A stretch of DNA of 64,000 nucleotides, taken from positions 2,670,001 to 2,734,000 of the forward strand of contig NZ_CP113866.1 of assembly GCF_026914305.1 (NCBI RefSeq), in the 5' to 3' direction. The DNA is from Caldicellulosiruptor acetigenus (GTDB lineage Bacteria; Bacillota; Thermoanaerobacteria; Caldicellulosiruptorales; Caldicellulosiruptoraceae). The notes beneath the pieces are model-generated. The model saw only the letters and a list, made by a program, of their open reading frames with translations, was not told the DNA's origin and searched no databases. Below are positions 1 to 42,880 of this stretch, in pieces. Position 1 is the first letter of the stretch. Each line of letters opens with the position of its first letter. A program made the translations under genes and the position numbers.

Positions 1-1146
1 AGCTTCTAAAAGCACGTTAAGTGCTCCTCTGTGCGCAGAAAAGAGAATTTTGTCGATTTTTTGTTGATAATGTGAAATTTTTTCCATAAAATACCTCGGC
101 ATCAAAAGGTAAAAGTGCCCTCCACCGTTGTATATAAGATTGCATACTGGCATGTTTTCTTCTTTTAGAATGTATCTTGCAATGGTGTCAAGCAAAAATG
201 AGATGTAAAATGATTTTGCCTTTAGTGCTTTCAGAGCACCGTCCATACTTGTGTCAAAAACAAAGTCTTGAATTCCAGAGACATCGCCTTTCACAAGGCA
301 AAAGTATGGGTAGTCACCTTTTTTTATCACAGATTCATTTCCAGGCAAAAGCTTTGTGTTGATTGCCTCCAAATCTCTTATTCTTTCATTTTCCTGCGAA
401 AACTCTTTTTTCAGCTGCCTGTCCAGGCAAAATGCAATTGCAGCAGTTGATTTGCTGTGCGCCCAGAGAGAAATATCAGGCTGCGAATGGTAAAAGGCTG
501 ATGGTACATTGTATGTGTAAATTCTAAGCAAGTTGTAAACGGCTGTTGCAAAGTCTTCTAAGTCAAATGAACTTTCAAAGCCATCTCTCAAAATGCTTAT
601 CTTCCTTGAAAACTCTGCCCATAGGCTTTGGTAATCTTCTTTTGCACTTGAGCTAAAACCTTCTATAGGATTTTCAACATTATACCTTTTCTTGAGAAGC
701 TTATAAAAAGGCTTTTTCGGTTCTTTTTTATCTCTGTCAAGGCTTATCTGGGACAAAACAGAAATTAAGTACTTTGACTTGTCACCTGTTGATTCTTCTT
801 CGCTTATGTCTTTCCTGTCAACTTTTGCTGAAATCTTGTCAGCAACGCTTATTAAAAGCTGCTGGTATGAAGATGGTCTGTGATGATACAGAACAAGAGA
901 TGTGACTCCTTTTAAGCTTTCTGGCAAAAAATGTTCGACAAAAAACGCGCCCCACTCCTGATGTCGCGGAGCATACTTCCCTTCTGCCTGGTAAAATGCT
1001 TCATATTCTTTTGAGATGTTCTTTTTAGCATCTGGATTTTCTGTTCTTATATAAAATTTGCCGATATCGTGCAAAATCGCGCCAAGAAAGAGAGTATAGT
1101 CAAAGTTCCTATCTTCTTCTCTTTGATGAGCACTGTAAAAAATCAT
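1..1146 (-). CDS. csm1: Type III CRISPR Cas10/Csm1, 5' part (runs off the left edge)
   Basis: Reading frame open from an ATG at 1146 to the left edge (382 codons, no stop), preceded by the ribosome site AAGGTGGG. The N-terminal HD nuclease motif HDIGKF is at residues 26-31, followed by a histidine-rich stretch (YHHRPSS). Near residue 300 lies GDVSGIQDFVF, the hallmark of the Cas10 Palm/Csm1 family, followed by YNGGGHFYLL. In type III-A systems Csm1 is the large subunit that makes cyclic oligoadenylate and cleaves DNA on target-RNA recognition. The GGDD active site would lie beyond the window, so cyclase competence cannot be judged. The remaining csm genes are presumably to the left. A shared box at 1326-1348 lies upstream. 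The family call is firm; subtype A rather than B or D is inferred from the Csm1-like motifs. Confidence 0.9.
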   Translation of the reverse strand, partial: MIFYSAHQREEDRNFDYTLFLGAILHDIGKFYIRTENPDAKKNISKEYEAFYQAEGKYAPRHQEWGAFFVEHFLPESLKGVTSLVLYHHRPSSYQQLLISVADKISAKVDRKDISEEESTGDKSKYLISVLSQISLDRDKKEPKKPFYKLLKKRYNVENPIEGFSSSAKEDYQSLWAEFSRKISILRDGFESSFDLEDFATAVYNLLRIYTYNVPSAFYHSQPDISLWAHSKSTAAIAFCLDRQLKKEFSQENERIRDLEAINTKLLPGNESVIKKGDYPYFCLVKGDVSGIQDFVFDTSMDGALKALKAKSFYISFLLDTIARYILKEENMPVCNLIYNGGGHFYLLMPRYFMEKISHYQQKIDKILFSAHRGALNVLLEA

Positions 1147-1470
1147 CTTTCTTGCCCACCTTCTTTTTTGTTGTGTATTCGACAGATTCAGTAACAAAGT
1201 TACACTTTATTCCATTATACAACAAAATATATTTGAAGAAAAGATTTACAGTCAAAAAACCTTATCTTAGTTCGAGCAGTTTTTTTCGATTATATAATAA
1301 AATACACTCAGTTTTGTAAACTGCAAAGTTCAAAAAATATGCGAAGTTGAAATTGCTATTTTCCAAGCAATAGCGATTCGATTTGCTGAGATCTGGAATA
1401 TTTGTGGCAAGGAAAAGGGCAGCGCTGAAATTTTATTCATTGTTTTTGAATATTTTGCGTATTTTTATTA
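1147..1470. other. Intergenic region between csm1 and leader 1
   Basis: No gene is visible in these 324 bases. On the minus strand the region holds the presumed csm1 promoter area: the shared box at 1326-1348, TATAAT-like sequences near 1290-1300, and another TATAAT-like hexamer near 1220. The rest is AT-rich, with no hairpin that I trust. Confidence 0.5.
1326..1348 (-). promoter_or_regulatory. Shared CRISPR/defence box, copy a (upstream of csm1)
   Basis: The minus strand reads AACTTCGCATATTTTTTGAA followed by CTT. This matches the 20-base box found at six other places in the window. It points toward csm1 and lies about 180 bp before its start codon. A TATTTT/TATAAT-like tract follows about 23 bp after the TTGAAC part. 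Confidence 0.6.
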
Positions 1471-1719
1471 ATTTTGACCAAAAGTCATATCCGTCGACCT
1501 CAGGTGCAAAATTTTAAGAAGCTGATTTGTATTCGGTTTCATGCATGTGGACTGTAGGTTTGAATGGATTTCTGGCAGCAGCTGGATAGACGGAAAGGTT
1601 TGAAAGGCTTCTTTTCTTTTATGCAACTGGGTTTGTGTTGATTTTGAGGGGATGTATTAAAATAAAAACATTGACAGGGGTGCATAAAGTTGATATAATA
1701 AAATCAAGCTTTTCAACCT
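1471..1719 (+). promoter_or_regulatory. CRISPR leader 1 with pre-crRNA promoter
   Basis: About 250 bp that is nearly identical to the regions before the other three arrays, from TTTTGACCAAAAGTCATATC to the first repeat. Conserved blocks include CCGTCGACCT and GCTGGATAGACGGAA; TCCGTC and GACGGA form a spaced inverted repeat. The last part holds a consensus sigma-A promoter: TTGACA at 1671-1676, a 17-bp spacer and TATAAT at 1694-1699. Transcription should begin about 14 bp before the first repeat, so pre-crRNA is read rightward. Confidence 0.85.
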
Positions 1720-2992
1720 GTTTGTAGCCTTCCCTTTGGGGATTGAAACATAAGCATGGTTTCAACATAACGTATGCTAACTGCAGTTTGTAGCCTTCCC
1801 TTTGGGGATTGAAACCCTCTTGTTTTGGTTTAATGCTTCACAACTCCACACTTAGTTTGTAGCCTTCCCTTTGGGGATTGAAACAGAAGAACAAGGAAAG
1901 GGGGTATTACGATGACGGTGTGTTTGTAGCCTTCCCTTTGGGGATTGAAACTTTTTGTCAATTATCCTTGCCATCCTATCAATTTCGAGTTTGTAGCCTT
2001 CCCTTTGGGGATTGAAACGATGCTTATCGCTATGGGATTTAATGCAGAAGAGGCAAGTTTGTAGCCTTCCCTTTGGGGATTGAAACGCTAATAAGACCTC
2101 ACTTGCTCCAAGCCTTCTAAGAGTTTGTAGCCTTCCCTTTGGGGATTGAAACGGGTATGCAACGTTAGGTGTTACAGTAGAGTATGGAGGTTTGTAGCCT
2201 TCCCTTTGGGGATTGAAACTCAAATCCCAATGCGTTGGATTACTCCCTTCTACATGTTTGTAGCCTTCCCTTTGGGGATTGAAACGTCTTTTCAGATATA
2301 ATGGGCTTGTCTGATATTGTTAAGGTTTGTAGCCTTCCCTTTGGGGATTGAAACACAGAATAGAGGGTGATTGATAATGGAATTTTACCTGTTTGTAGCC
2401 TTCCCTTTGGGGATTGAAACATTTGCTTTTTGTATTCTCGATTTACATAGCAAGCGTTTGTAGCCTTCCCTTTGGGGATTGAAACTCTTCAAATGCTGCT
2501 CCAATAAGCCCGTCCAGTATACTGTTTGTAGCCTTCCCTTTGGGGATTGAAACGCTTCTTCATAAGTGAATTCTTCCCTAAGATTTTCGGTTTGTTTGTA
2601 GCCTCCCCTTTAGGGATTGAAACGCTAACTGCTTATCTCTCTCTTGAAGCTGCGCTTCTAATGTTTGTAGCCTCCCCTTTGGGGATTGAAACAGTTTCAC
2701 CAGGAATCCAAAAGGTGCAATGGCATCTGTTTGTAGCCTGCCCTTTGGGGATTGAAACCCATCCAGAATGGCTGGGATACGCTCGCCGAGTTCCAGTTTG
2801 TAGCCTTCCCTTTGGGGATTGAAACTGGTGGATATTGACAAGATAACAAGAATTGAACCTTAATTTGTAGCCTTCCCGTTGGGGATTGAGGAGGGAGGGG
2901 GTTGTAGCCTTCCCGTTGGGGATTGAAACCCGCATAAGGTGAGAGACTTGTCATAAACTACAGTTTATAGCCTCTTCTTTGGGAATTGGAAA
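1720..2992 (+). CRISPR. CRISPR array 1, about 20 repeats
   Basis: The 30-bp repeat begins GTTTGTAGCC, has the core TTCCCTTTGGGG and ends GATTGAAAC. Repeats start at 1720, 1786, 1855, 1922, 1989, 2057, 2123, 2190, 2256, 2325, 2391, 2456, 2524, 2594, 2663, 2729, 2796, 2863, 2900 and 2963. Spacers are 35-40 bp. Identity is perfect to 2524 and then decays: single changes at 2594, 2663 and 2729, and clear degeneration in the last three. The repeat at 2863 ends ATTGAG instead of ATTGAAAC, and only about 7 purine-rich bases separate it from the next. The leader end is at the left. The ATTGAAAC 3' tag is typical of Cas6-processed type I-B and III repeats. Confidence 0.97.
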
Positions 2993-3736: not shown

Positions 3737-5155
3737 CTACTCAAGTCTTCTTTTCAGCCAGCAGTTTATATCATTAAAATTAACATTTAAACTATATCTT
3801 ACTAATACCCTGTCATCTTCTGTTCTAACTTCTGTTGCATTTCTCTCAAATCCGCTGTGTGCAAAAAAGTTTCTTGGGTCAATTTCACCTGCTGATTTGT
3901 CTGGGTCAATTATTCTGTAAAGCCCTGTCCATGTGGAGATATCACCTATCTGTTTTAATTTTTCCTGTGTATTTGAAACTTCATTGCCAAGCATTACTAT
4001 GTTTGTATGAAGTCTAAAAATCAAATAAATCTCCGAAAAACTGTTCTTGACAGTCTCTATATCAATTCCTGTATCATGACAGAACATGGTCACATTGTAC
4101 TTTTCCAGCACGTTTACAATTCCAATGTAAAATCCTAAACTCAAAACTGCATCTATGTAAGCTCTTTTGTTGAGGTTGGGAGATTTTTGATAGTCACTGC
4201 AAAGCCGGGCTTTAGCATGGTCAATTAGCTTAAAAGTCTCTTCTTTTATCTCATCTGCAGAGTGATAGTGCTGGTAGTAAAGATACAGGGGAACATTGTT
4301 TTTAATAGCCGAAAATAAGAGACAGAACATTTCTATCTTCTCTTTTAGTTTTTTACGCTTTTCCCTTGCCTGTTGTTTTAGTTTGACTGCTTCTGAGCCT
4401 TTTGAATTGTTGTTCGGGTCAGGGTAGATTTCTCTTAAAAATGAAAAATTATAGTCCGCTGCCTCCTTGCTCTTTATTGGTGATGAGAAGAACGCTGTAA
4501 ATCTTTGCTGCTGGATGTGTATCTCAAAACTTTTTGCTGAGCTTCCTATGATCGGGTCAGAAAAAGTGATATATATTTTTGGGGATTTAGTATCATCAAT
4601 CCAATTAACAAGGTGCGAAAAGACAGCAAAATGCCTTGCAGCTTCTAAGATGGCAGAGATGTAGATGTTGTGCCCGCTTGAGATGTCAAGGTAAAGCTCT
4701 TCAAGTTCACCTTTTAGGTATCTTTCTATCATATCAAAAAGAATTTCAAGTACAATGTCATCATAACTTGCATCAAGAGATATTCCTAAATACTCGCCAA
4801 GAGAGTGAACAATCAGCTTTTCGTCTCTGTTTCTTTCAAGTTCTATTCTGTCTATAAATTCATGTGGATTTTTCAGATAATTTGATGGGTCTTTGAAAAT
4901 ATCTACAAGCTCGTTTTTAAGCTCCTCTGGCTGGATGTACTCTGGAAGCTTGCTGTTAAAAACAATGCTCACAGGATAAATAATAACAGTTTTTGCTTCA
5001 TAATTTCTTTTGCGCAAAAAGTCTCTCAGGACAATTGATGAAAGCTCAGCTTTTCCACTTTCATCAACCTTTTCTCCATGAAAATTTTTGATATAAAACT
5101 CTTTGGTAGCTTGTGCAGGATTGTCAAGCCTTCCAACTTGATATATTACTTTCAT
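3737..5155 (-). CDS. csx1: CRISPR-associated Csx1-type CARF-HEPN ribonuclease
   Basis: 472 residues. The N-terminal CARF half carries the ligand-loop signature LDISSGHNI at about residues 156-164, equivalent to the D-x-(S/T)-(H/S)-G-x-N loop of Csx1/Csm6 proteins. The C-terminal HEPN half ends with RNFFAHSG, an R-x4-H ribonuclease motif (R428, H433). In the family, cyclic oligoadenylate made by Cas10 binds the CARF dimer and switches on non-specific RNA cleavage. It therefore pairs functionally with the csm1 at the left edge. The ATG at 5155 has GGAGC upstream. The gene follows the DUF1848 gene but is separated from it by a terminator-like hairpin (5261-5295), so it probably has its own promoter; ATTATA at 5226-5231 is a candidate -10. 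Confidence 0.9.
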   Translation of the reverse strand: MKVIYQVGRLDNPAQATKEFYIKNFHGEKVDESGKAELSSIVLRDFLRKRNYEAKTVIIYPVSIVFNSKLPEYIQPEELKNELVDIFKDPSNYLKNPHEFIDRIELERNRDEKLIVHSLGEYLGISLDASYDDIVLEILFDMIERYLKGELEELYLDISSGHNIYISAILEAARHFAVFSHLVNWIDDTKSPKIYITFSDPIIGSSAKSFEIHIQQQRFTAFFSSPIKSKEAADYNFSFLREIYPDPNNNSKGSEAVKLKQQAREKRKKLKEKIEMFCLLFSAIKNNVPLYLYYQHYHSADEIKEETFKLIDHAKARLCSDYQKSPNLNKRAYIDAVLSLGFYIGIVNVLEKYNVTMFCHDTGIDIETVKNSFSEIYLIFRLHTNIVMLGNEVSNTQEKLKQIGDISTWTGLYRIIDPDKSAGEIDPRNFFAHSGFERNATEVRTEDDRVLVRYSLNVNFNDINCWLKRRLE

Positions 5156-5248: not shown

Positions 5249-5295
5249 AAAAAAGAAAAAGCTGCAAAGAAAAGCAATGCTGCCCTCTTTACAGC
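5249..5295 (-). terminator. Rho-independent terminator after the DUF1848 gene
   Basis: On the minus strand GCTGTAAAG (5295-5287) pairs with CTTTGCAGC (5269-5261), nine pairs with one G-T. It is followed by TTTTTCTTTTTTT. The stem begins inside the last codons of the DUF1848 gene. Confidence 0.6.
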
Positions 5296-6383
5296 AATGT
5301 CCTCTGTTTTATTCTTTTAATATGATCTAAAACCTTCTTTTCAAGAGAGCTGTTAGTATTTTTTTCTACAAAATTGATTTGTTGTACACAAAAATCAAGT
5401 TGAGATATTCTTCTTTCCTGATTTTTATCCTGTTCCAAAATATGGCTGATTTCAAGCTTTTTAGAACCATCTTTTTCCCTTATTCTTATCTCATCTTTTT
5501 CAAGGTCAAGTGCGCTGCACAAAAGAGGTGAGTTGACATCATATTTTTGAGCGTTTTTGATTATTGAATTTCTGCTGAAGTTTGCGTAGCAGTACACACA
5601 AAAGTGTTTGCATGTGTTGAATATTCCAAGGTCTATGCTCTGCACACATCCGCAAGCTTTTCTTTGATTGTTGTCTTTTCTATATTCTTTATCTTGAAAA
5701 CCTTTTTCTTTTCTGAGATCATTTATAAGATCACCATCTACACAGTGTGCTTTTTTCAGCCCAAGATATTCGACCGGCACATCTTCTGCACAGGTCTCAA
5801 CGCTGAGGTTATATTTTTTCCCAATACTGCCTATTGCACTAAAGAGGTTGTAAAGATCATTCTGTTCAAGCCTCTTGGCATTTATTTTATTCAGCTCATC
5901 TTCTGCCTTGCTGTAAAAGTCCACATAGCTTATTATACACTTTTGAGTATAAGGAGAAAGCTTTTCACTAAGCTCTTCAAACTTTTCTTTGTGGTAGTCC
6001 AGAGGCATCTTATCAGTGATAATTATTGGGTCATACCGCCAGATAACCCTCTTTTCCCCTATCATATCTGAAAGTTTTATAAAAGTCTCAATGACCTCAT
6101 CCTTATTCGGAATTCCCGGTTCAAGGTCTTGAGCATAAGGTGTGATTGTAAATTGAAAATAATAAATGTATTCATCCAGATATTTGAGCTTGTCCAAAAA
6201 ATTCTTAGGATTTTTTGTCCAGAAGACTATGGCATCAACGTCTTTTGGATGAAGCGATACAGCAAAAACCTGGGTTGGTCTCATAGGATTTCGATACATT
6301 GCAAATCCTTCTTTTATTCTATTTATAAACCAATCGCCAAAAAAAGCTGGGATATCTGTCCTTCTGCTTGCACTTATAATCAT
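5289..6383 (-). CDS. DUF1848 family iron-sulfur (radical-SAM-like) protein
   Basis: 364 residues from the ATG at 6383. A TTG seven codons earlier (6404) is possible, but GAGGAG sits 9 bp before the ATG and MIISASRRTDIPAF is the usual family start. Recognised as DUF1848: RTDIPAFFGDW near the N-terminus, VFWTKNP, VIWRYDP. A C-terminal cysteine cluster contains CKHFCVYCYAN, a C-x3-C-x2-C arrangement like that of radical SAM enzymes. Substrate and reaction are unknown. It forms an operon with the methyltransferase gene upstream (17-bp gap). The operon lies next to csx1 and has a shared defence box at its head, which suggests, but does not prove, a link to CRISPR immunity. Confidence 0.8.
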   Translation of the reverse strand: MIISASRRTDIPAFFGDWFINRIKEGFAMYRNPMRPTQVFAVSLHPKDVDAIVFWTKNPKNFLDKLKYLDEYIYYFQFTITPYAQDLEPGIPNKDEVIETFIKLSDMIGEKRVIWRYDPIIITDKMPLDYHKEKFEELSEKLSPYTQKCIISYVDFYSKAEDELNKINAKRLEQNDLYNLFSAIGSIGKKYNLSVETCAEDVPVEYLGLKKAHCVDGDLINDLRKEKGFQDKEYRKDNNQRKACGCVQSIDLGIFNTCKHFCVYCYANFSRNSIIKNAQKYDVNSPLLCSALDLEKDEIRIREKDGSKKLEISHILEQDKNQERRISQLDFCVQQINFVEKNTNSSLEKKVLDHIKRIKQRTLL

Positions 6384-6400
6384 CCAAATCAACTCCTCAC

Positions 6401-7339
6401 TCAAATCAAGATATCTTCATTTTTAATTAGCACAAGCTGGGCACTTCGGTATTCGTACCAAATCTCAAAATAGTTTTTCAAATCCGCTGGGACATTTCCC
6501 ATGTCAACTTCACATTTAGAGTGAGCACCGCCAAATTGAAGGCTTGGATCATTTCTATACGGAAAGTAATATTTGAACACTGATATGTTGCGGCTGTGCC
6601 AAAACTTGTCAGCCAAAGGTTCAAGGATATCACGACCCTTGACTTCATCTGGATTTCTTTCAGCATAGCTCTGCAGCACATTTGTATCATTAAAAACTAT
6701 CATGGTTGATTTTGGCAATATTTCGAAAGCTTTTTGCACAAACTCTTCTGCAAATCGCTTTACAGAACTTACAGGGTGGTATTTTGCCATGTCCGATAGA
6801 ACATACTGAAATGAGATGATATTAGGCTTTTCATTTTTGATAATTTCTTCAACTTTTTGAACTTCACTCATTACATCTATATAAGTAATTCTAAATCTTG
6901 ACAAATTGTGCTTTTTCTCATGCTTTGTTATAAAATCGTGAATATCTTTCCAGAGCATGTTCTTCTCAAGTCCATGGTACTCAATTTTTTTATATGGCTT
7001 ATATGTCTTGAAGTAAGCTTCAAATGCAAAAAGGTCTGTGCACGGTCCGCATCCAATCGAAAGAATTCTGGGATTGTCTGGAAGTCTATGGCTAATCTGG
7101 TGAAGGAGAGTAAAAAGTTCTCCAGCATGTTTGAGAGAGTATCTCCCGCAGTAATAGTATATCATATTCTTGCAATCATAATCACGAACATTGCCATTGT
7201 TCTTCCTTTTGAAGTGAACCTTTGGAAGACATCTTTCGCAGTTGCTTTCTCTCTGGAAGAGCGAATTTAAAGAGCTAAGACATACTGAAGAGTGTCTTTC
7301 CTTTGCCATTCTCATAACGTCATATACAAGCAGACACAC
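6401..7339 (-). CDS. Class I SAM-dependent methyltransferase-like protein with N-terminal cysteines
   Basis: 312 residues, GTG start at 7339 with AGGGGAG 9 bp upstream. The nucleotide-binding loop is ILSIGCGPCTD (motif I of class I methyltransferases), followed by EYHGLEKN (acidic motif II region) and later NIISFQYVLSDMA. The N-terminal about 70 residues contain CERC and a later C-x8-C pair, possibly a metal site. It is the first gene of a two-gene operon with the DUF1848 protein and carries a copy of the shared box 74 bp upstream. The target (RNA, protein or small molecule) cannot be told from sequence. It is not recognisable as a restriction-modification enzyme: no NPPY or DPPY motif is visible. 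Confidence 0.65.
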   Translation of the reverse strand: MCLLVYDVMRMAKERHSSVCLSSLNSLFQRESNCERCLPKVHFKRKNNGNVRDYDCKNMIYYYCGRYSLKHAGELFTLLHQISHRLPDNPRILSIGCGPCTDLFAFEAYFKTYKPYKKIEYHGLEKNMLWKDIHDFITKHEKKHNLSRFRITYIDVMSEVQKVEEIIKNEKPNIISFQYVLSDMAKYHPVSSVKRFAEEFVQKAFEILPKSTMIVFNDTNVLQSYAERNPDEVKGRDILEPLADKFWHSRNISVFKYYFPYRNDPSLQFGGAHSKCEVDMGNVPADLKNYFEIWYEYRSAQLVLIKNEDILI

Positions 7340-7412: not shown

Positions 7413-7435
7413 AAGGTCAAAAAATTTGCGAAGTT
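7413..7435 (-). promoter_or_regulatory. Shared CRISPR/defence box, copy c (upstream of the methyltransferase operon)
   Basis: The minus strand reads AACTTCGCAAATTTTTTGAC then CTT, 74 bp before the GTG at 7339 and in the same orientation. TAAAAT follows about 23 bp after TTGACC. Confidence 0.7.
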
Positions 7436-7512
7436 GGTGGGAAGGGAAGTAAAAAACAGTGAAGATATTTCTGTCCTGATAGGGTATATGGAAAGGGAAC
7501 AGAAAATAAATA

Positions 7513-17330: not shown

Positions 17331-17729
17331 TTAGCGACACAGAATGTATTTTCTAAACCTTTCATGTCTGAAAATCTTGTGAAGCTCTACAGAACCATCT
17401 GGCCTTACAACTTCCTTTGCCACTCTTTTTGTTGTTGCATAAATGGGCACAAATCCGTTTTTAAAACACCAGCTCACAATGTAAACTGTTGCTCCAAAGT
17501 CACCCTGAACAAGGCAAAAGTTTTCTTTTTCTCCTTTGTTTTGCAGCAAAAAAGCTGTGATGCCTTCAAACATCTCTTCTGTCAGCTCTACATCTGGCGG
17601 AATGCTACTCCAAAAATCTTGAAGCTGTGGCGGAAGGCTTACAATCTCTTCAACCTGTAAAACTTCTCTTGCTTCTTTTTCTTGTTCTTCAGAAAGCTGG
17701 TGGTTGAAAATTAAAAATAGTTTGTTCAA
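17331..17729 (-). CDS. csx20: CRISPR-associated Csx20-type protein
   Basis: 132 residues from a TTG at 17729 (GAGAGG 11 bp upstream; a GTG at 17738 is too near it). KLFLIFNHQLSEEQ at the N-terminus, LPPQLQDFWSSIPP, then LVQGDFGATVYIV and YATTKRVAKEV with a basic end (HERFRKYIL) match the Csx20 family linked to type III CRISPR systems. I recall it as CARF-related; whether it binds or degrades cyclic oligoadenylate is not visible. It has a shared box 93 bp upstream and sits just before leader 2. Confidence 0.8.
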   Translation of the reverse strand: MNKLFLIFNHQLSEEQEKEAREVLQVEEIVSLPPQLQDFWSSIPPDVELTEEMFEGITAFLLQNKGEKENFCLVQGDFGATVYIVSWCFKNGFVPIYATTKRVAKEVVRPDGSVELHKIFRHERFRKYILCR

Positions 17730-17821
17730 TATTACCACTTCCTCTCATAAAACTTTAACTCAATAGGTGGGTAGCAAGCAAAGACTCTTTTTATATGATA
17801 CAATTGTTAAGCAAAATTTTA

Positions 17822-17844
17822 AAGTTCAAAAATCATGCGAGGCT
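17822..17844 (-). promoter_or_regulatory. Shared CRISPR/defence box, copy d (upstream of csx20)
   Basis: The minus strand reads AGCCTCGCATGATTTTTGAA then CTT, 93 bp before the csx20 start. TATCAT follows 23 bp after TTGAAC. It is the least conserved copy at its left end. Confidence 0.6.
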
Positions 17845-17974
17845 GCTTGTTTATTAATAAGTATTTGTATTCAGTTTTATAACTTCCAGGTTAGAAAATT
17901 GATTTTGGAGACATGTACTATACATGCTTTTGTAATATTATTCATTATTACTGAGGTACTTATGTATTGATATG

Positions 17975-18224
17975 CATTTTGACTAAAAGTCATATCCGTC
18001 GACCTCAGGTGCAAAATTTTTTTAAGCTGATTTGTATTCGGTTTCATGTATGTGGGATGTGGGTTTGAACGGATTTCTGGCAGTTGCTGGATAGACGGAA
18101 GGCTTTAAAAGGCTTCTTTTCTTTGATGCAACTGGGTTTGTGTTGATTTTGAGGGGATGTATTAAAATAAAAACATTGACAGAGGTGCATAAAGTTGATA
18201 TAATAAAATCAAGCTTTTCAACCT
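17975..18224 (+). promoter_or_regulatory. CRISPR leader 2 with pre-crRNA promoter
   Basis: Near-identical to leader 1. The similarity to leader 4 extends further left, from TGTAATATTATTCAT at about 17933. Promoter TTGACA (18176-18181), 17 bp, TATAAT (18199-18204). Confidence 0.85.
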
Positions 18225-19281
18225 GTTTGTAGCCTCCCCTTTGGGGATTGAAACTTTTTAAAAGTTTCGAAAGGGGGGAATAGAACCAAGGTTTGTAGCC
18301 TCCCCTTTGGGGATTGAAACGAAAAAAGCTTGAGCAGAACATAGATGAGGCTATTGTTTGTAGCCTCCCCTTTGGGGATTGAAACGAAGTCAATCATATG
18401 CGGGAAAAAGAAAGAAGAAAAAAGTTTGTAGCCTCCCCTTTGGGGATTGAAACCCAGCAAGGCACACACCGGCAAATAACCGCTATCGAGTTTGTAGCCT
18501 CCCCTTTGGGGATTGAAACTCAAACAAAAAAGCAGTGTTTTTGTACACTGCTTTCGTTTGTAGCCTCCCCTTTGGGGATTGAAACCTTTGCATTAACAAA
18601 TCTAATACACCCTTGAAAAAGTCCAGTTTGTAGCCTCCCCTTTGGGGATTGAAACACAAAGAAATAATAGAGAAAAGACAAGGTTCTATAAAAGTTTGTA
18701 GCCTCCCCTTTGGGGATTGAAACACAAAAGCTTTACAAACAACAAAACAAAGGGAAAATGTTTGTAGCCTCCCCTTTGGGGATTGAAACTCAACCGTTGC
18801 AAAAGTTACACCTGCCGCCGCCATAAGTTTGTAGCCTCCCCTTTGGGGATTGAAACAGAGTCAATTTTGTTTTTTAGAAGCTTATCTAAATTGGTTTGTA
18901 GCCTTCCCTTTGGGGATTGAAACGTATCCATATCAATAAAATCAATGTTTTTCAATTTTGTTTGTAGCTTCCCCTTTGGGGATTGAAACCAATAGTATAC
19001 ACACAAGTCCACCAACCCAAGAAGGAGTTTGTAGCCTCCCCTTTGGGGATTGAAACAGTGGTTATAAGGGATTCATTGACATAAACTGTATCGTTTGTAG
19101 CCTCCCCTTTGGGGATTGAGGTGGGGAGGGGTTTGTAGCCTCCCTCTTGGGAATTGAGGATGGAGGAGGGTTTGTAGCCTTCCATTTGGAGATTGAAACT
19201 GTTCGGAGATGGGATAAATTTTGATAGTGGTACAAAAGGTTTGTAGCTTTCCCTTTGGGAATTGAGAAGAGAGATTGAAAC
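18225..19281 (+). CRISPR. CRISPR array 2, about 17 repeats (TCCCC variant)
   Basis: Repeats start at 18225, 18291, 18356, 18424, 18490, 18556, 18626, 18694, 18760, 18827, 18894, 18960, 19027, 19093, 19131, 19170 and 19239. The dominant repeat differs from array 1 at one base: GCCTCCCC instead of GCCTTCCC, which extends the central CCCC-TTT-GGGG pairing. Copies at 18894 and 18960 carry single changes; those from 19093 on are degenerate, ending ATTGAG. Spacers are 35-40 bp, but only 8-9 purine-rich bases separate the repeats at 19093, 19131 and 19170. A partial repeat end (GATTGAAAC) closes the array at 19281. Confidence 0.97.
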
Positions 19282-22033: not shown

Positions 22034-22416
22034 TGTTCTTGTATGAAATGTAATGAATTTGACTTTTTGATACTATCTGTCTCTTTTTGATTCTGCCTTG
22101 TATTTGTTTCTGTTATAATTTTATATTCACTTTAGTTCTTTTTTCATCCCATTCAAAATTCCTTTACTACAAAATCGACAACTACAACAATTGTAAATAC
22201 CTTCAAGCCATCAACAATTCTGAGCATCATATTAAAGCCCTGTGAAAACTGCTGAATCTTATCTTTTCATTCATTCACCTTCTATCTCTAAGATTTCTTA
22301 ATTTAACTATATCGAAGCTAAAGTGCAAAAAAGCAAAAATTATGTTCAGAAGAACTCTGTAAATCATCCTCTTTGCATTTATTATAAATATAAACTGTTT
22401 TGAGAATTTATATTCA
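22034..22416. other. Gene-free AT-rich region before leader 3
   Basis: No gene, RNA or strong hairpin that I can support. Short TATAAT-like strings are present (about 22115), but nothing is consistent with a specific transcript. Confidence 0.4.
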
Positions 22417-22664
22417 CCTTGACCAAAAGTCACTTCCGTCGACCTACGGTGCAAAAATTTTGAGGTTTGTTTTGTATGCGGTTTCATTTAGGTGATGTAC
22501 GGCTTTATTTGGAACGCTGCCAGCAGCTGGATAGACGGAAAGCAAACATCAAGTTTCATTGCTTGATTTTCTTCTTATGAGGTAACTTATCCACAGATGT
22601 TTCGATATAAAAACATTGACATAGGTGTATAATCTTGATATAATAATTTCAAGCACTTGAACAT
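22417..22664 (+). promoter_or_regulatory. CRISPR leader 3 with pre-crRNA promoter (most diverged)
   Basis: Same block order as the other leaders but with many substitutions (CACTTCCGTCGACCTACGGT, later GCTGGATAGACGGAAAG). Promoter TTGACA (22616-22621), 17 bp, TATAAT (22639-22644). Confidence 0.8.
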
Positions 22665-23239
22665 GTTTGTAGCCTTCCCGTTGGGGATTGAAACATATTA
22701 AACAGCGACGTTTTCTCGTTCTCGCTTGCAATGTTTGTAGCCTTCCCGTTGGGGATTGAAACGCTTTCTGGATATAGTCCACGTAAAGCCAATGATAAGT
22801 TTGTAGCCTTCCCGTTGGGGATTGAAACAATTCAATACCAAGATTATGAATGGATTGATGAGGGTTTGTAGCCTTCCCGTTGGGGATTGAAACAAAATCT
22901 TGAGACTTTCAATCATTGCTTTTCCCCTCGTTTGTAGCCTTCCCGTTGGGGATTGAAACGTTGGAGTGCAGAAGAGGCAATTGCTTTTTTAAAGTGGGTT
23001 TGTAGCCTTCCCGTTGGGGATTGAGGTGGGGAAGGGGTTTGTAGCCTCCCCTTGGGGGATTGAAACGGAGAACAAGCACCATTCTCAATGCGACTTATTG
23101 TTTCGTTTGTAGCCTTCCTTTTGGGGATTGAAACATTGCTGAAAAATTTTCTTTTCAGGCACCTCATCATGTTTGTAGCCTTCCCGTTGGGGATTGAGAA
23201 AAGAAGAGAGTTTTTACCCTTTCCTTTGGGAATTGTGAA
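22665..23239 (+). CRISPR. CRISPR array 3, about 10 repeats (CCCGTT variant)
   Basis: Repeats start at 22665, 22733, 22799, 22864, 22930, 22998, 23037, 23105, 23171 and a very degenerate one at 23210. The array-specific repeat has TTCCCGTTGGGG in the core. The copy at 22998 ends ATTGAG and is followed by a 9-base purine spacer; the same happens at 23171/23210. Other spacers are 35-38 bp. It lies directly upstream of the acidic-protein gene and the type I-B operon. Confidence 0.97.
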
Positions 23240-23731: not shown

Positions 23732-23781
23732 TTTTAAAACTGTCTTAAAAAAACTTTAATGAATAAAGTAAAATTTACATT

Positions 23782-23804
23782 AACTTCGCATAAAATTTGA
23801 CCTT
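23782..23804 (+). promoter_or_regulatory. Shared CRISPR/defence box, copy f (promoter region of the type I-B operon)
   Basis: Reads AACTTCGCATAAAATTTGAC then CTT and is closest to the consensus. It lies 75 bp before the cas4 start; a perfect TATAAT follows 22 bp after TTGACC (about 23825-23830). Confidence 0.75.
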
Positions 23805-31890: not shown

Positions 31891-32025
31891 CACTTTTTGC
31901 TTTCTCCCTTGTCATACCTGTAGGTTTAGAGATTTTACCTTGTTTTATTCTCCTTGCAGCACTTTTAATATAGCTATTGTTGTAATATTATTCATAATCT
32001 TTGAAGAAATCGTGAATACCAATAC

Positions 32026-32274
32026 ATTTTGACCAAAAGTCATATCTGTCGACCTCAGGTGCAAAATTTTTTGAGTTTGGTTTGTATTCGGTTTCATACT
32101 TGTGGGCTGTAGGTTTGAATGGATTTCTGGCAGCAGCTGGATAGACGGAAAGGTTTGATAGGCTCCTTTTCTTTGATACACCTAAATTTGTTCCAGTTTT
32201 AATGGCATGTATTAAAATAAAAACATTGACAGCGGTGCATAAAGTTGATATAATAAAATCAAGCTTCCCAACCT
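32026..32274 (+). promoter_or_regulatory. CRISPR leader 4 with pre-crRNA promoter
   Basis: Near-identical to leaders 1 and 2, from TTTTGACCAAAAGTCATATC on. Similarity with leader 2 starts earlier, at about 31981. Promoter TTGACA (32226-32231), 17 bp, TATAAT (32249-32254). Confidence 0.85.
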
Positions 32275-32877
32275 GTTTGTAGCCTTCCCTTTGGGGATTG
32301 AAACAAATCTCAGCCATTTCTTTTTGTTTGAGTCCTTTTTCTGTTTGTAGCCTTCCCTTTGGGGATTGAAACTTAGGTGCTTTATAATATTCCAAAACTA
32401 AACCGCCAGTTTGTAGCCTTCCCTTTGGGGATTGAAACACTAAATCTTTAAACCTTTCCCTGTGCAACTTCATCGGTTTGTAGCCTTCCCTTTGGGGATT
32501 GAAACTTCCTTCATACTGTTCATCATTGCCCCAGCTATTTCCTGTTTGTAGCCTTCCCTTTGGGGATTGAAACTGTTTCTTGCATTATTTCGCACCGCTT
32601 CTCTGATAGGTTTGTAGCCTTCCCTTTGGGGATTGAAACATGTAAACTGCTAATTCGCAGCTAAGAGGCTGTTTAGTTTGTAGCCTTCCCTTTGGGGATT
32701 GAAACAAAGGTAACTGGTCGTATTCAAGCAAGATATACGCTCTGTTTGTAGCCTTCCCTTTGGGGATTGAAACATACATCTCAGATAGTAAATCTTCTAA
32801 CAAATCAGGTTTGTAGCCTGCCCTTTGGGGATTGAGGTGTAGGTTGTGTTCGTAGCCACTTCTTTGTGGATCGAAAA
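32275..32877 (+). CRISPR. CRISPR array 4, about 10 repeats
   Basis: Repeats start at 32275, 32343, 32409, 32476, 32544, 32610, 32676, 32744, 32809 and a degenerate one at about 32848. The main repeat is identical to that of array 1. The copy at 32809 carries GCCTGCCC and ends ATTGAG; a 9-base gap follows. Spacers are 35-38 bp. The trailer (AAGAAAAGAGGGTAAGCCAC, then CTCTGGGGAA) is also found after array 1. Confidence 0.97.
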
Positions 32878-32995: not shown

Positions 32996-33925
32996 GTGTG
33001 CGAGAAATTACCACCAAAAGAGCACGATACAACGTTCAAGTTTTTGTTTGCAGACAAAGAGGAGATACTTTTGCTTGTAAAAGACATACTGCACTACACA
33101 TGGGCAGACAACATTGAAGAAGACACAATTGAGCTTGTCAAGACAAACTATGTAACTCAGCAGTTTTCGCAGGTTGAGGTTGATGTTGTAGCAAAAGCAA
33201 AACTAAAGGACAAAGAAGTGTATTTTTATATCCTGATTGAGAACCAATCGAAGGTAAAAAGAGAAATGCAACAAAAGATTTTAAAATACATGATAAGTCT
33301 ATGGGCAGAAGAAATAAGAAAAGGGGTACAAATCCTGCCGGCAATTATACCGATAGTTGTGTACAACGGAATAGGTGAGAGATGGAATGTATCAACAGAC
33401 CTTATGGAGGCGTTTGACATATTCAAGGATGATGTATTCAGGTACAGAGTAGTTGACATAATAGAGCTTGATGCGAAGAAGCTTTTAGAAAGAGAAGAGG
33501 ATGTGCTGACACCGATAGTGTTTTATCTTGAGCAGGCAAGAGAAGACAGGAGTGAGCTTATAGGAAGGCTTTTGGAAGTTGAGAAGAACTTAAAGAAGCT
33601 GAGTAAAAAGAATGTAGACAGATTTTTGGAGTGGTCGTATCATATTATAAGACCGAGACTGGCTGAAGAGCAAAAGTCAGAGTATGATGGTATTGCAAAA
33701 CGGGTTAAACAGGAGGGAGTGGAAGCTATGGGTGAGTTTATATCAAATGTTGCAAGACTTTTGGATGAGGCAAAGACAAAAGATTTTTTGGCAGGCAAAT
33801 TTGAAGCAACAATCGAGTTTGCGAAAAGGTTAATACAAAAGGGTTTTAGCGATGAAGAGGTTGCAGAACTTACAGATCTTCAGATTGAAAAAGTTAAAGA
33901 GTTGAGAAAATCCATGGTAAATTGA
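32996..33925 (+). CDS. Rpn family recombination-promoting nuclease / transposase-like protein
   Basis: 309 residues, GTG start with AAGGAG 8 bp upstream and TATAAT at 32943-32948. The N-terminal KEHDTTFKFLFADKEE, then VDVVAKAKLKDKEVYFYILIE with NQSKVKREM (the PD-(D/E)XK D…E-x-Q core), and IPIVVYNG are typical of the Rpn/PDDEXK_9 family (formerly transposase_31). The C-terminal third is a charged helical region (GEFISNVARLLDEAK, then RLIQKGFSDEEVAELTDLQI). Family members cut DNA and promote recombination. Truncated relatives lie at 3056-3335 and 53903-54155. Confidence 0.9.
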   Translation: MCEKLPPKEHDTTFKFLFADKEEILLLVKDILHYTWADNIEEDTIELVKTNYVTQQFSQVEVDVVAKAKLKDKEVYFYILIENQSKVKREMQQKILKYMISLWAEEIRKGVQILPAIIPIVVYNGIGERWNVSTDLMEAFDIFKDDVFRYRVVDIIELDAKKLLEREEDVLTPIVFYLEQAREDRSELIGRLLEVEKNLKKLSKKNVDRFLEWSYHIIRPRLAEEQKSEYDGIAKRVKQEGVEAMGEFISNVARLLDEAKTKDFLAGKFEATIEFAKRLIQKGFSDEEVAELTDLQIEKVKELRKSMVN

Positions 33926-40382: not shown

Positions 40383-41390
40383 TTAAACTATCTCATTGTC
40401 GAAATACATTTTAAGTGCATTTTTTACCCTTGAGATTATACTTTCTCTGATGCGCTGCGGCTGAGTTACAACAACATCTCTGCCCAAATACAGTATTCTT
40501 GAGATTATCTCTGCCTCTTCAAACTCATAATAGTAAATTTTCATCTTGTGCTTGTTTTTTTCTTTCAAAAAACGCGCACTCTTCTCAAAAGAAGAAAATA
40601 GGCAAAATGCTCTCTCTAAAGCGTTTCTTGTATTCATAACTTCAATGATTATAGGCTGTTTTGCTTTTGCGTTTCTTAAATACAGCTCATATTCTTTCAA
40701 AACATATTCCCTATTAAAACTTCCCTCTTCGTATCTTACATCTTCAAGGTTCTGAATAATACACTTCGCAAAGTTTCTGTGCTCAATAGAGTAAAATATA
40801 ACATAGAACATGTCATCCTTTAAAGAGTACTGAATCTTTACAGGAATGCCAACAACATCTTTTAAAGTCTCTCCCTGTCTTGTTGTGTAGGTGTATCGCA
40901 AAAGCCTTTTCTCAAGTATACTTTTTGTAATCATCTTTAACTTTGGTGATAAATCTTTTACGCTTTCTCTCTTCAAAATTTTTGAATAGTTCTTTGGCAC
41001 AATCAAATTTGTGTCAATTGACGGCACATAGCTACTTTTTAGCTTTTTTATCTTTTCAATTGTATTCTTATCAAGGAAAAGCTCTGCATACCTGCTTGAC
41101 ATTATAAATTTCAGCCACATTATCTCTAAGTTTGTAACATACGGCTCAATTTTAGAGTCTATCCTGAGACTGTAGGTTTTGTTATCTTGCTGTTTTAGCA
41201 CATAGATGTTTTTCTGGTACTGAGCATTTTTTGCAAATAACCTATCTTCAATTACCTGGAAGTTACAGTTGTATCTGGTGAGAATATCATAGATTTCCTT
41301 TTGTGAAATTGTCCCTTTCTCATATGCATTGTTTATAATCTCCTCTAAAGCCTTGTAAAATGTACTTTTTGCCTCAAGAAATATCTCCAT
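40383..41390 (-). CDS. WYL-domain protein (second of a pair)
   Basis: 335 residues. The central RLLRYTYTTRQGETLKDVVG, then VKIQYSLKDDMFYVIFYS, is a WYL-type SH3-like sensor; the end (ILYLGRDVVVTQPQRIRESI) is the WCX extension. The N-terminal 100 residues could hold a degenerate helix-turn-helix (TISQKEIYDILTRYNCNF). WYL proteins are ligand-sensing transcription factors frequently linked to CRISPR and other defence loci. It overlaps the upstream WYL gene by 17 bp, so the two are co-translated and may act as a heteromer. Confidence 0.8.
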   Translation of the reverse strand: MEIFLEAKSTFYKALEEIINNAYEKGTISQKEIYDILTRYNCNFQVIEDRLFAKNAQYQKNIYVLKQQDNKTYSLRIDSKIEPYVTNLEIMWLKFIMSSRYAELFLDKNTIEKIKKLKSSYVPSIDTNLIVPKNYSKILKRESVKDLSPKLKMITKSILEKRLLRYTYTTRQGETLKDVVGIPVKIQYSLKDDMFYVIFYSIEHRNFAKCIIQNLEDVRYEEGSFNREYVLKEYELYLRNAKAKQPIIIEVMNTRNALERAFCLFSSFEKSARFLKEKNKHKMKIYYYEFEEAEIISRILYLGRDVVVTQPQRIRESIISRVKNALKMYFDNEIV

Positions 41391-42687
41391 AGTTTTTCAA
41401 AATCTCCTTCCATTCGTTTATCATTTCTTCTCTGAGTTTTCTTGAAGCTTCTGTTGTGCCAAGTACCAAGGCTCTTTCACCAAAACTTCTCAGCCATCCT
41501 TTGAATTCTTTTATGTTGCTAAGCTCATACTCAACTTCAAATGTCTCCTCATCCACCCTGTTTATCCTTGCGTTTTTGAGTTCTCTTTTAACCCGCGCAA
41601 GCACAAAGTTATATGAAGAATTAGACGGATTTTTGAACCTGATTGTAATCTTCTCAAAACCTTTTTTTCTTTTGGGCACAGATACAAAAAAACACTTTTC
41701 AATAAGATTTGCAAGCGGCAAGATTTGCTTTGGATTAAAGCTCTCTTGCAAAATCTCTATTTTCTCCACTCTCCAAGCCGGAAGAGCTAAAACCTCTTCT
41801 TCTTTTGCAACTAAAAAATACCATCTGCCAAGCTTTACATCGTATACAATCCTGACAGGCAGGCAAACAAATTCTGTTTTCTTATTTTTCTTGCGTAGCC
41901 AGTACCACACTTTTAATTTTTTGTTGTTTGATGCTGCCTCTAAAAATTTCCATACAAGCTCTTCTTCAAGGATGTAGTGATGCGGAACATATGTGAACCA
42001 GAACATACTACTGGCATTTTCTATAAACTCTTTTTCGCCAAGCTCTAAAAGATACTTTTCCAAGCTCTCTTTTAAGTACCAGCCCGGCACGCTCGGCACA
42101 TGTGAGTTTATGAAAAACAAAACTGATATGTAAATGTTTTTTATTTCGTCTATCGAAAAATCTTTAAAGACTTCCTTTGCCTGAGAACAAAGAAGATACA
42201 CTTTTTCGTCTTTCAAATATTTGATAATCCCCAGTTGCTGCATCTGTTTTAAAATCCTTTTAAGGCTTGACTCAAGGTCTGCATCGGCAACATCGCGGTC
42301 AAGCACCTGAGAAATTTTATCCAATATTTGACCAGCTGATGCTTTTTTGTCATGTTCTGCGTTTAATACCTGTAGGGTCATAAAAAACAGTGTTGTTTGC
42401 AGGGCTGTTGATGTCTTCGAAAAATATATATTTACAAGCGGGTTTTCCACATCTTTGAAAAAGTCTTCGACAATACAGGGTAGTTTTCTTTTCCCATCTT
42501 TTTCATCAATTAAATACTTCTCTTCGCCCAAGAATATTCTCATTCTTCGAAGTTCATCGTCAAACGTCCTTTTTGCAATGTTAAAGTTTTCTGCATCTTC
42601 TCTTGAATAGCATCCGTACAGATACACAATCCTTGAAAAGTTTCTGAGCTTGTTAAAATCATTAACAAACGGATTAAACGGCGGCAT
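41374..42687 (-). CDS. WYL-domain protein (first of a pair)
   Basis: 437 residues from the ATG at 42687 with AAGAAGGTG upstream. The frame is open to 42819 only because it runs into the TnpB element. The N-terminal segment has a winged-helix feel (RNFSRIVYLYGCYSREDAE, then TFDDELRRMRIFLG, as in WYL regulators). The core is KLKVWYWLRKKNKKTEFVCL and VYDVKLGRWYFLVAKEEEV, and the WCX-like end is FKGWLRSFGERALVLGTTEA. Likely a DNA-binding regulator. Its upstream region has been replaced by the end of the TnpB element (42731), so its native promoter may be lost or displaced. Confidence 0.8.
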   Translation of the reverse strand: MPPFNPFVNDFNKLRNFSRIVYLYGCYSREDAENFNIAKRTFDDELRRMRIFLGEEKYLIDEKDGKRKLPCIVEDFFKDVENPLVNIYFSKTSTALQTTLFFMTLQVLNAEHDKKASAGQILDKISQVLDRDVADADLESSLKRILKQMQQLGIIKYLKDEKVYLLCSQAKEVFKDFSIDEIKNIYISVLFFINSHVPSVPGWYLKESLEKYLLELGEKEFIENASSMFWFTYVPHHYILEEELVWKFLEAASNNKKLKVWYWLRKKNKKTEFVCLPVRIVYDVKLGRWYFLVAKEEEVLALPAWRVEKIEILQESFNPKQILPLANLIEKCFFVSVPKRKKGFEKITIRFKNPSNSSYNFVLARVKRELKNARINRVDEETFEVEYELSNIKEFKGWLRSFGERALVLGTTEASRKLREEMINEWKEILKNYGDIS

Positions 42688-42730
42688 AATTTTAGCACCT
42701 TCTTTTACAGTCTTGATTTTTGCAGCTGAG

Positions 42731-42880
42731 TGAACTACCGACCACCTACAGAGGTGGTAGCTTCGTGAGAAGTTTGGTAGCCTTATGCTACCCTTATTCT
42801 CACAGGGTGGTTCACACACCCACTACTGACTATCTGCTTTAAAGCAGACTCACCAGCTACTTTTCTTAAAATATTTATCG
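42731..42880 (-). ncRNA. Predicted omega (right-end) guide RNA of TnpB
   Basis: In this family the guide RNA scaffold overlaps the tnpB 3' end and finishes at the element's right tip, with flanking DNA as guide. Here the last tnpB codons run into two hairpins (GGTAGC…GCTACC and ACCACCT…AGGTGGT) and CTTCTCACGAAG. The guide would begin TCAGCTGCAAAAATC at 42730 and below. The 5' limit is a guess. Confidence 0.5.

Follow-up and report, generated by a model that had tools for sequence, protein, structure and literature searches.

Why do genes for a methyltransferase and a DUF1848 protein lie beside csx1 in a type III CRISPR locus, and what might the two enzymes do there? The question is raised by a 64,000-nucleotide (nt) stretch of the Caldicellulosiruptor acetigenus chromosome (the window; G000:C1:2670001-2734000 within a single-contig genome of 2.74 Mb), for which a sequence-only reading had proposed the two genes as a candidate type III ancillary module. 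Our analysis indicates that the pair is very probably a portable conflict-system cassette that reaches beyond CRISPR alone. That the CRISPR regulon runs this two-enzyme cassette as a type III ancillary module, by the mechanism proposed below, is a narrower claim, to which we give somewhat less than an even chance.

Results

The methyltransferase gene (6401..7339, minus strand) encodes a protein of 312 amino acids (aa), identified as dependent on S-adenosylmethionine (SAM) by its family match and fold prediction and carrying a Cys-rich N-terminal region; it starts at a GTG with a GGGGAGTG ribosome-binding site. The DUF1848 gene follows on the same strand, in an open reading frame (ORF) that spans 5289-6404 and opens at a TTG at 6404. 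We placed its start at the ATG at 6383 (5289..6383, 364 aa) because homologues start there and because this ATG lies behind a GAGGAG ribosome-binding site. Both ORFs are intact, and 17 nt separate the methyltransferase stop from this ATG. The two genes had been described as tightly coupled, and the spacing is indeed tight, without overlap. The methyltransferase matched the PADLOC family C3a159, 'methyl transferase' (PDLC01079), over its full length (E 3.4e-149; residues 1-297 against positions 1-265 of 265), and the DUF1848 protein matched PF08902 (E 4e-102, 341.9 bits, cut-off 30.5) and the PADLOC entry 'RTasDUF1848' (E 3e-52).

Searches of 398 genomes of the phylum found C3a159 in eight, seven from the window's own genus and one (G178) from another family, and DUF1848 in 126, about a third. 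All eight genomes with the methyltransferase also had DUF1848 (hypergeometric 9e-5, with genomes counted as independent), and no intact methyltransferase was found in a genome without DUF1848. A weak methyltransferase match in G427, which lacked an accompanying DUF1848, was rejected as a generic methyltransferase.

Type III loci with the pair or with DUF1848 occurred in four Firmicute families (the window's own genus; G178; G017; G087 and G048), and three families had the pair itself next to Csm, Csx1 or Cmr genes. In G178 it sits between a CRISPR array and cmr1-cmr2-cmr3-cmr4, directly before cmr1-cmr2. The order in G017 is WYL, WYL, Card1-like nuclease, methyltransferase relative, CARF, DUF1848, Csx1-like and cas10. 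DUF1848 occurs without the methyltransferase at the G087 locus, with a 14-nt overlap with cas6 of a csm operon, and at the G048 locus, ahead of CARF and WYL genes. Testing of 80 DUF1848 genomes for Csm1 and Cmr2 revealed about 24 with a cas10 outside the genus. In four of these, DUF1848 and cas10 were no more than 15 kb apart, where 0.28 such cases would be expected (P 2e-4; 3e-3 with the two g51 genomes counted once). In a quick tree built from 70 DUF1848 proteins, three changes accounted for the type III label, with the type III proteins in three separate placements, and thirteen for the methyltransferase label. Recruitment of DUF1848 to type III systems therefore probably happened more than once, and by this tree the methyltransferase-DUF1848 pairing is old or repeated. 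Recurrence in unrelated lineages, which the sequence-only reading had named as support for its proposal, was thus found in gene neighborhoods and on the tree alike. It had counted against the proposal a pair located mostly away from defence loci or CRISPR; most DUF1848 genes did have neither Cas10 nor the methyltransferase nearby, but the pair recurs at several defence loci.

A profile built from nine methyltransferases was run against the 2,875 ORFs of the fetched loci and gave new matches in L116 (6e-8), L134 (4e-5) and L105 (4e-4), then in L046 and L042. Outside the genus, each match was the gene that precedes DUF1848; in L105 a single CARF gene separates the two. These loci had been fetched around DUF1848, so the result is conditional on that choice. 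The methyltransferase-led finds are not: such searches independently reached DUF1848-adjacent genes in G178, in Natronincola and in G465. Scans for methyltransferase relatives found none in the viral collection and only the Natronincola gene in genome contigs, in both cases probably due to strict degenerate patterns.

The pair was also found in other conflict-related contexts. At ten DUF1848 loci fetched from the viral collection, the neighbors were serine recombinases, an integrase and prophage genes; a methyltransferase relative lay immediately upstream of DUF1848 in L125, L126-L128, L129 and L134, and its counterpart in L130 is broken. Type I restriction genes (HsdS and HsdR) lie near the pair in L125. 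A single run in Natronincola (L064) comprises a TIR gene, a TPR-cold-shock gene, a methyltransferase with RnlA-toxin-like N-terminal domains and DUF1848. A methyltransferase-led search of 380 further genomes yielded G465 (L166), which contains a unit of DUF1848, a methyltransferase bearing a TBP-TOTE domain, and a TPR-cold-shock gene; this unit adjoins a DrmC-like gene and a giant AAA protein. In G381 and G085, DUF1848 directly follows a methyltransferase-reverse transcriptase fusion that scored as UG25 (E 1e-122). The N-terminal methyltransferase of UG25 matched the methyltransferase family with a probability of 90 and E 1.5e-6, against 1.6 for RsmG as a single control sequence. The idea of a CRISPR-only module was accordingly rejected, as the pair also occurs in TOTE-like, mobile-element, type I restriction and UG25-related contexts. 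What stands of the proposed type III ancillary module is its recurrence at type III loci behind a conserved box; specificity for CRISPR does not.

Two sets of coordinates from these loci are recorded here as side observations. The whole of L166:8247-19972 (minus strand) is a candidate defence operon comprising a DrmC-like gene, a 1957-aa AAA protein, a 435-aa protein of no assigned family, DUF1848, the methyltransferase-TBP-TOTE gene and the TPR-cold-shock gene. UG25-type fusions followed by DUF1848 are located at L096:5959-9575 (plus strand) and L103:8151-11905 (minus strand).

A 24-nt box, CAACTTCGCANNWTTTTTGANCTT, links the pair to the CRISPR genes of the window. It lies upstream of the methyltransferase (7413..7436, minus strand), of csm1 (1326..1349, minus strand), of csx20 (17822..17845, minus strand; 2 mismatches) and of the type I-B cas4-cas1 operon (23781..23804, plus strand; 3 mismatches), with 0.01 chance matches expected per window. 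A box common to the pair, csm1 and csx20 had been noticed before; the copy at cas4-cas1 extends it. Only two perfect matches exist genome-wide, those of csm1 and the methyltransferase. The box is conserved in four relatives, 69-75 nt before the methyltransferase (in L027 once its longer annotated start is taken into account), and in G277 it is kept although the methyltransferase is broken. As judged from these sequence matches, the box marks a CRISPR regulon to which both the type III and the type I-B operons belong. On either side of the pair lie terminator-like stems, at 5296-5278, a candidate terminator 3' of DUF1848 (5278..5296, minus strand), and at 7534-7512. The stem scan is weak (3 found against 1.5 expected), and these possible terminators suggest that the pair may form a transcription unit of its own. 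Membership in the neighboring protease/rhomboid genes was considered and rejected in view of the pair's own box and these stems.

Some observations concern possible partners of this regulon. A further copy of the box (G000:C1:82819-82839, L013; 4 mismatches to a longer pattern) precedes a gene for a 138-aa protein and a macro-domain-like gene, and macro-domain genes adjoin DUF1848 in L089 and L122. Two adjacent genes at 40383-42819 of the window (minus strand) lie in the same island, one of them a WYL-family match. WYL pairs adjoin the methyltransferase-DUF1848 pair or DUF1848 in L071, L074, L081, L105 and L106, and WYL genes are candidate regulators of the box.

The methyltransferase had been recognized from sequence as SAM-dependent with N-terminal cysteines, and the closer analysis agreed. 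Its SAM-binding motif I, ILSIGCG (residues 92-98; 7046..7066, minus strand), contains an SxGCG that is invariant in six homologues. The N-terminal Cys/His region (residues 16-56; 7172..7294, minus strand) comprises H16, C20, C34, C37, H42 and C56, the four cysteines being invariant in five homologues, and is likely a metal site, although still a putative one. This region has a pLDDT (predicted local distance difference test) value below 50 in the predicted model, without a confident fold. The model as a whole (pLDDT 67, with a good core) has a predicted class I methyltransferase fold over residues about 55-309 (best Z 15.6). Many families tie at Z 14-15.6, Rsm22/METTL17 among them; the substrate therefore cannot be read from the fold. 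Pfam Methyltransf_23 reached only 17.1 bits, below its cut-off, and among solved structures none was related by sequence to the methyltransferase or to DUF1848.

The C-x3-C-x2-C motif noted earlier in the DUF1848 protein is CKHFCVYC (residues 265-272; 5589..5612, minus strand), a putative [4Fe-4S] site whose cysteines are invariant in nine homologues. The protein was modeled as a TIM (triose-phosphate isomerase) barrel with a pLDDT of 78. In VIA-align comparisons of this model, the top 13 rows were all radical-SAM enzymes (Z 8.5-10.2, root-mean-square deviation 3.1-4.9 over 171-206 residues), among them Elp3 (Z 10.2, 4.5 A, 202 residues), HemN (9.9, 4.2 A, 206) and MqnE (9.7, 3.1 A, 191), with isopropylmalate synthase below them at 8.3; the radical-SAM RNA methyltransferases RlmN and Cfr were also among the fold matches. 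The usual radical-SAM order, with the cluster loop after the first barrel strand on the N-terminal side, is absent from DUF1848, whose motif lies at 265-272. The HemN alignment begins at HemN residue 101, past its cluster cysteines 62, 66 and 69, as expected if strand 1 and the cluster loop had been permuted to the end. On this basis we regard a radical-SAM barrel with circular permutation as the likely fold of DUF1848.

Sequence profiles and an independent fold search pulled the other way. Pfam Radical_SAM (PF04055) gave at best 20.5 bits with the native sequence and 20.8 with the permuted one, against a cut-off of 29.5. With a hidden Markov model search and hhalign, the alignment of the permuted sequence spanned the whole Radical_SAM domain, but the score, which is dominated by the Cys motif, hardly rose. 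Foldseek alone returned only generic TIM barrels for the model (E 2e-3 or worse).

Decay of the cassette was one-sided. The methyltransferase is scattered and often lost within the genus. In G277 and G301 a methyltransferase with a large internal deletion lies directly before an intact DUF1848 gene; in G323 the broken methyltransferase is elsewhere and an intact DUF1848 adjoins csx1; and in L130 again only the methyltransferase is broken. Stand-alone DUF1848 genes adjoin the genes for the O6-methylguanine methyltransferase Ogt (G174), an HhH-GPD glycosylase (G280), AlkD (G346, G386 and G378) and an AlkZ-like glycosylase (G257; also G114, within 1.4 kb), as well as macro/SIR2 genes (G339 and G315). 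AlkD/AlkZ genes lay within 1.5 kb of DUF1848 in 5 of about 43 cases, against 0.07 expected with genomes counted as independent. These neighbors are a lead to the general function of the DUF1848 family. Stand-alone DUF1848 genes near alkylation repair or macro/SIR2 genes are found in L041, L047, L048, L052, L089, L122 and L124.

Discussion

One-sided decay, the repair neighborhood and the effector-like slot of the methyltransferase together favor an effector plus an antidote or repair enzyme. In the mechanism that we propose, the box would bring about joint expression of csm1, csx20 and the cassette. With its N-terminal metal region as the anchor, the methyltransferase would then methylate RNA or DNA, acting alongside Csx1 as a slower second effector. 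DUF1848 would serve as the antidote or repair enzyme: it would erase or process this methylation, or damage related to it, in the nucleic acid of the host. This division of labor, in which both the substrate and the direction of the chemistry are inferred, is put forward tentatively. Its most general form, a toxin-antidote cassette of a nucleic-acid methyltransferase and a permuted radical-SAM eraser that serves as an interchangeable effector of type III, TOTE-like and UG25 systems, is more doubtful.

Several points weigh against this reading. Neither protein has a known activity; association is what the data show, and the chemistry is inferred. No CARF or SAVED profile match was found in either protein, the methyltransferase N terminus being modeled at low confidence, and coupling to cyclic oligoadenylate is therefore unexplained. 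The two genes lie 36 kb apart in G152. DUF1848 often occurs without the methyltransferase, type III loci included (G087 and G048), and so has a function of its own. The link to repair genes is one of stand-alone DUF1848 only, and its test followed on the observation that suggested it; a cassette lacking a toxin would likewise be compatible with a repair role.

Other explanations were weighed against the same evidence. The methyltransferase and the radical-SAM enzyme might act sequentially on one substrate (RNA, a DNA base or a nucleotide), the hypermodified product being an effector or a self mark and neither enzyme an antidote. Tight pairing across deep DUF1848 diversity (13 tree changes), the presence of DUF1848 in every methyltransferase genome found, and RlmN and Cfr among the fold matches all suit such a pathway, but DUF1848 stays intact where the methyltransferase is deleted or absent, and stand-alone copies adjoin repair rather than modification genes; we consider it unlikely. 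Those repair-gene neighbors, the type III loci with DUF1848 alone and the tolerated loss of the methyltransferase would instead suit host protection, with DUF1848 as the main actor repairing damage that the type III response or invaders inflict on host nucleic acid, and the methyltransferase as a helper or protective methylase rather than a toxin. That view is improbable in the light of methyltransferases that occupy effector-like slots, as fusions with RnlA-like and TBP-TOTE domains (L064 and L166), or that are related to the N-terminal methyltransferase of UG25 reverse transcriptases.

The cassette might also be passenger cargo of mobile elements that settles in defence islands and plays no functional part in type III immunity. 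The neighbors of the pair include serine recombinases, integrases and prophage genes, its distribution within the genus is scattered with frequent loss, and most DUF1848 genes are away from Cas10. Set against this, the CRISPR-operon box is kept before the methyltransferase even where that gene is broken, and integration in G178, G017 and G087 is operon-like, which makes mere cargo quite improbable. It is highly improbable that the pair tunes Csx1, next to Csx20, by methylating or editing a nucleotide second messenger such as cyclic oligoadenylate: the pair adjoins csx1 and shares a regulon with csx20, but no cyclic nucleotide synthase was in view at four other loci that carry it (L064, L071, L074 and L125).

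The cassette resembles several known systems and differs from each. Like the CARF-type ancillary effectors of type III systems (Csx1, Card1 and Csm6), the pair occupies the same loci and, here, the same regulon; unlike them, it gave no CARF match by profile, and two SAM-using enzymes replace a nuclease. In UG25/UG35 reverse transcriptase systems with 'RTasDUF1848', DUF1848 likewise stands beside a related methyltransferase, there fused to the reverse transcriptase; no reverse transcriptase match was found in the window pair or its near neighbors, and the window methyltransferase is separate, its N terminus being rich in Cys. TOTE conflict systems consist of TPR, OB, TBP and effector components (PMC12458937, citing Aravind 2022). 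L064 and L166 resemble them in carrying TPR-cold-shock genes and TBP-like or RnlA-like domains fused to the methyltransferase, with DUF1848 adjacent, whereas the window pair and its near neighbors gave no TPR-OB or TBP-like match. With the radical-SAM superfamily (HemN, Elp3, MqnE, RlmN), DUF1848 shares the C-x3-C-x2-C motif and a predicted TIM barrel, but its cluster motif is C-terminal (permuted) and Pfam Radical_SAM stays below cut-off.

The sequence-only reading knew of no described CRISPR role for the pair. This holds for the pairing, which seems undescribed, but not for the methyltransferase, which is already catalogued as defence-associated in PADLOC under C3a159, a label that agrees with the type III accessory genes reportedly listed by Shah et al. 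2019. The C3a159 entry as shown is silent on DUF1848, on occurrence outside CRISPR and on function, and the methyltransferase family found here is wider; DUF1848 is catalogued in PADLOC as reverse transcriptase-associated only. A limited literature search on DUF1848, PF08902 and type III with radical SAM gave nothing useful and no paper on the two genes together, and an earlier description of the pair is possible.

One two-enzyme cassette thus appears to serve several unrelated immune systems. C3a159 gains its missing second component, and the DUF1848 family gains a partner and a testable identity (permuted radical-SAM, nucleic-acid repair). If the proposed mechanism is true, type III CRISPR gains an effector that modifies rather than cuts nucleic acid. 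DUF1848 would then be a new branch of radical-SAM nucleic-acid repair, in a superfamily that includes spore photoproduct lyase, and, to our knowledge, the first radical-SAM demodification enzyme in CRISPR immunity.

Other features of the window

Leftward, the order is methyltransferase, DUF1848, csx1, CRISPR array and csm1. The downstream neighbor of DUF1848 is csx1 (CARF-HEPN; 3737..5155, minus strand; TIGR01897, E 8e-44). The array (1717..2992, plus strand) has csx1 on one side and csm1 on the other. The latter is the 5' part of the type III-A csm1/cas10 gene (1..1197, minus strand), which continues left past the window edge and has intact HD and GGDD sequences; csm2-csm5, cas6, nurA and herA lie beyond the window. 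To the right of the pair are housekeeping genes for an SDH-type ClpP-like protease and a rhomboid protein. The pair had been placed between csx1 and core genes, which is correct for chromosomal core genes; it does not lie between csx1 and the csm core. Further right are csx20 (17331..17738, minus strand; PADLOC Csx20, E 1e-55) and a type I-B operon at 23.9-31.9 kb of the window. The identities given earlier to csx1, csm1 and csx20 thus agree with the profile matches and intact motifs.

Left of the window, herA-like and nurA-like genes directly follow the csm-cas6 operon (L006:6308-9966, minus strand). A 300-nt leader is repeated at four CRISPR arrays (1426-1725, 17931-18230, 22371-22670 and 31981-32280 of the window), with 64-89% identity to the first copy and degenerate terminal repeats. 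Copies of an Rpn-like gene (PD-(D/E)XK transposase-type) are strewn among the CRISPR arrays, at L006:75-1028 and at 32996-33925 of the window.
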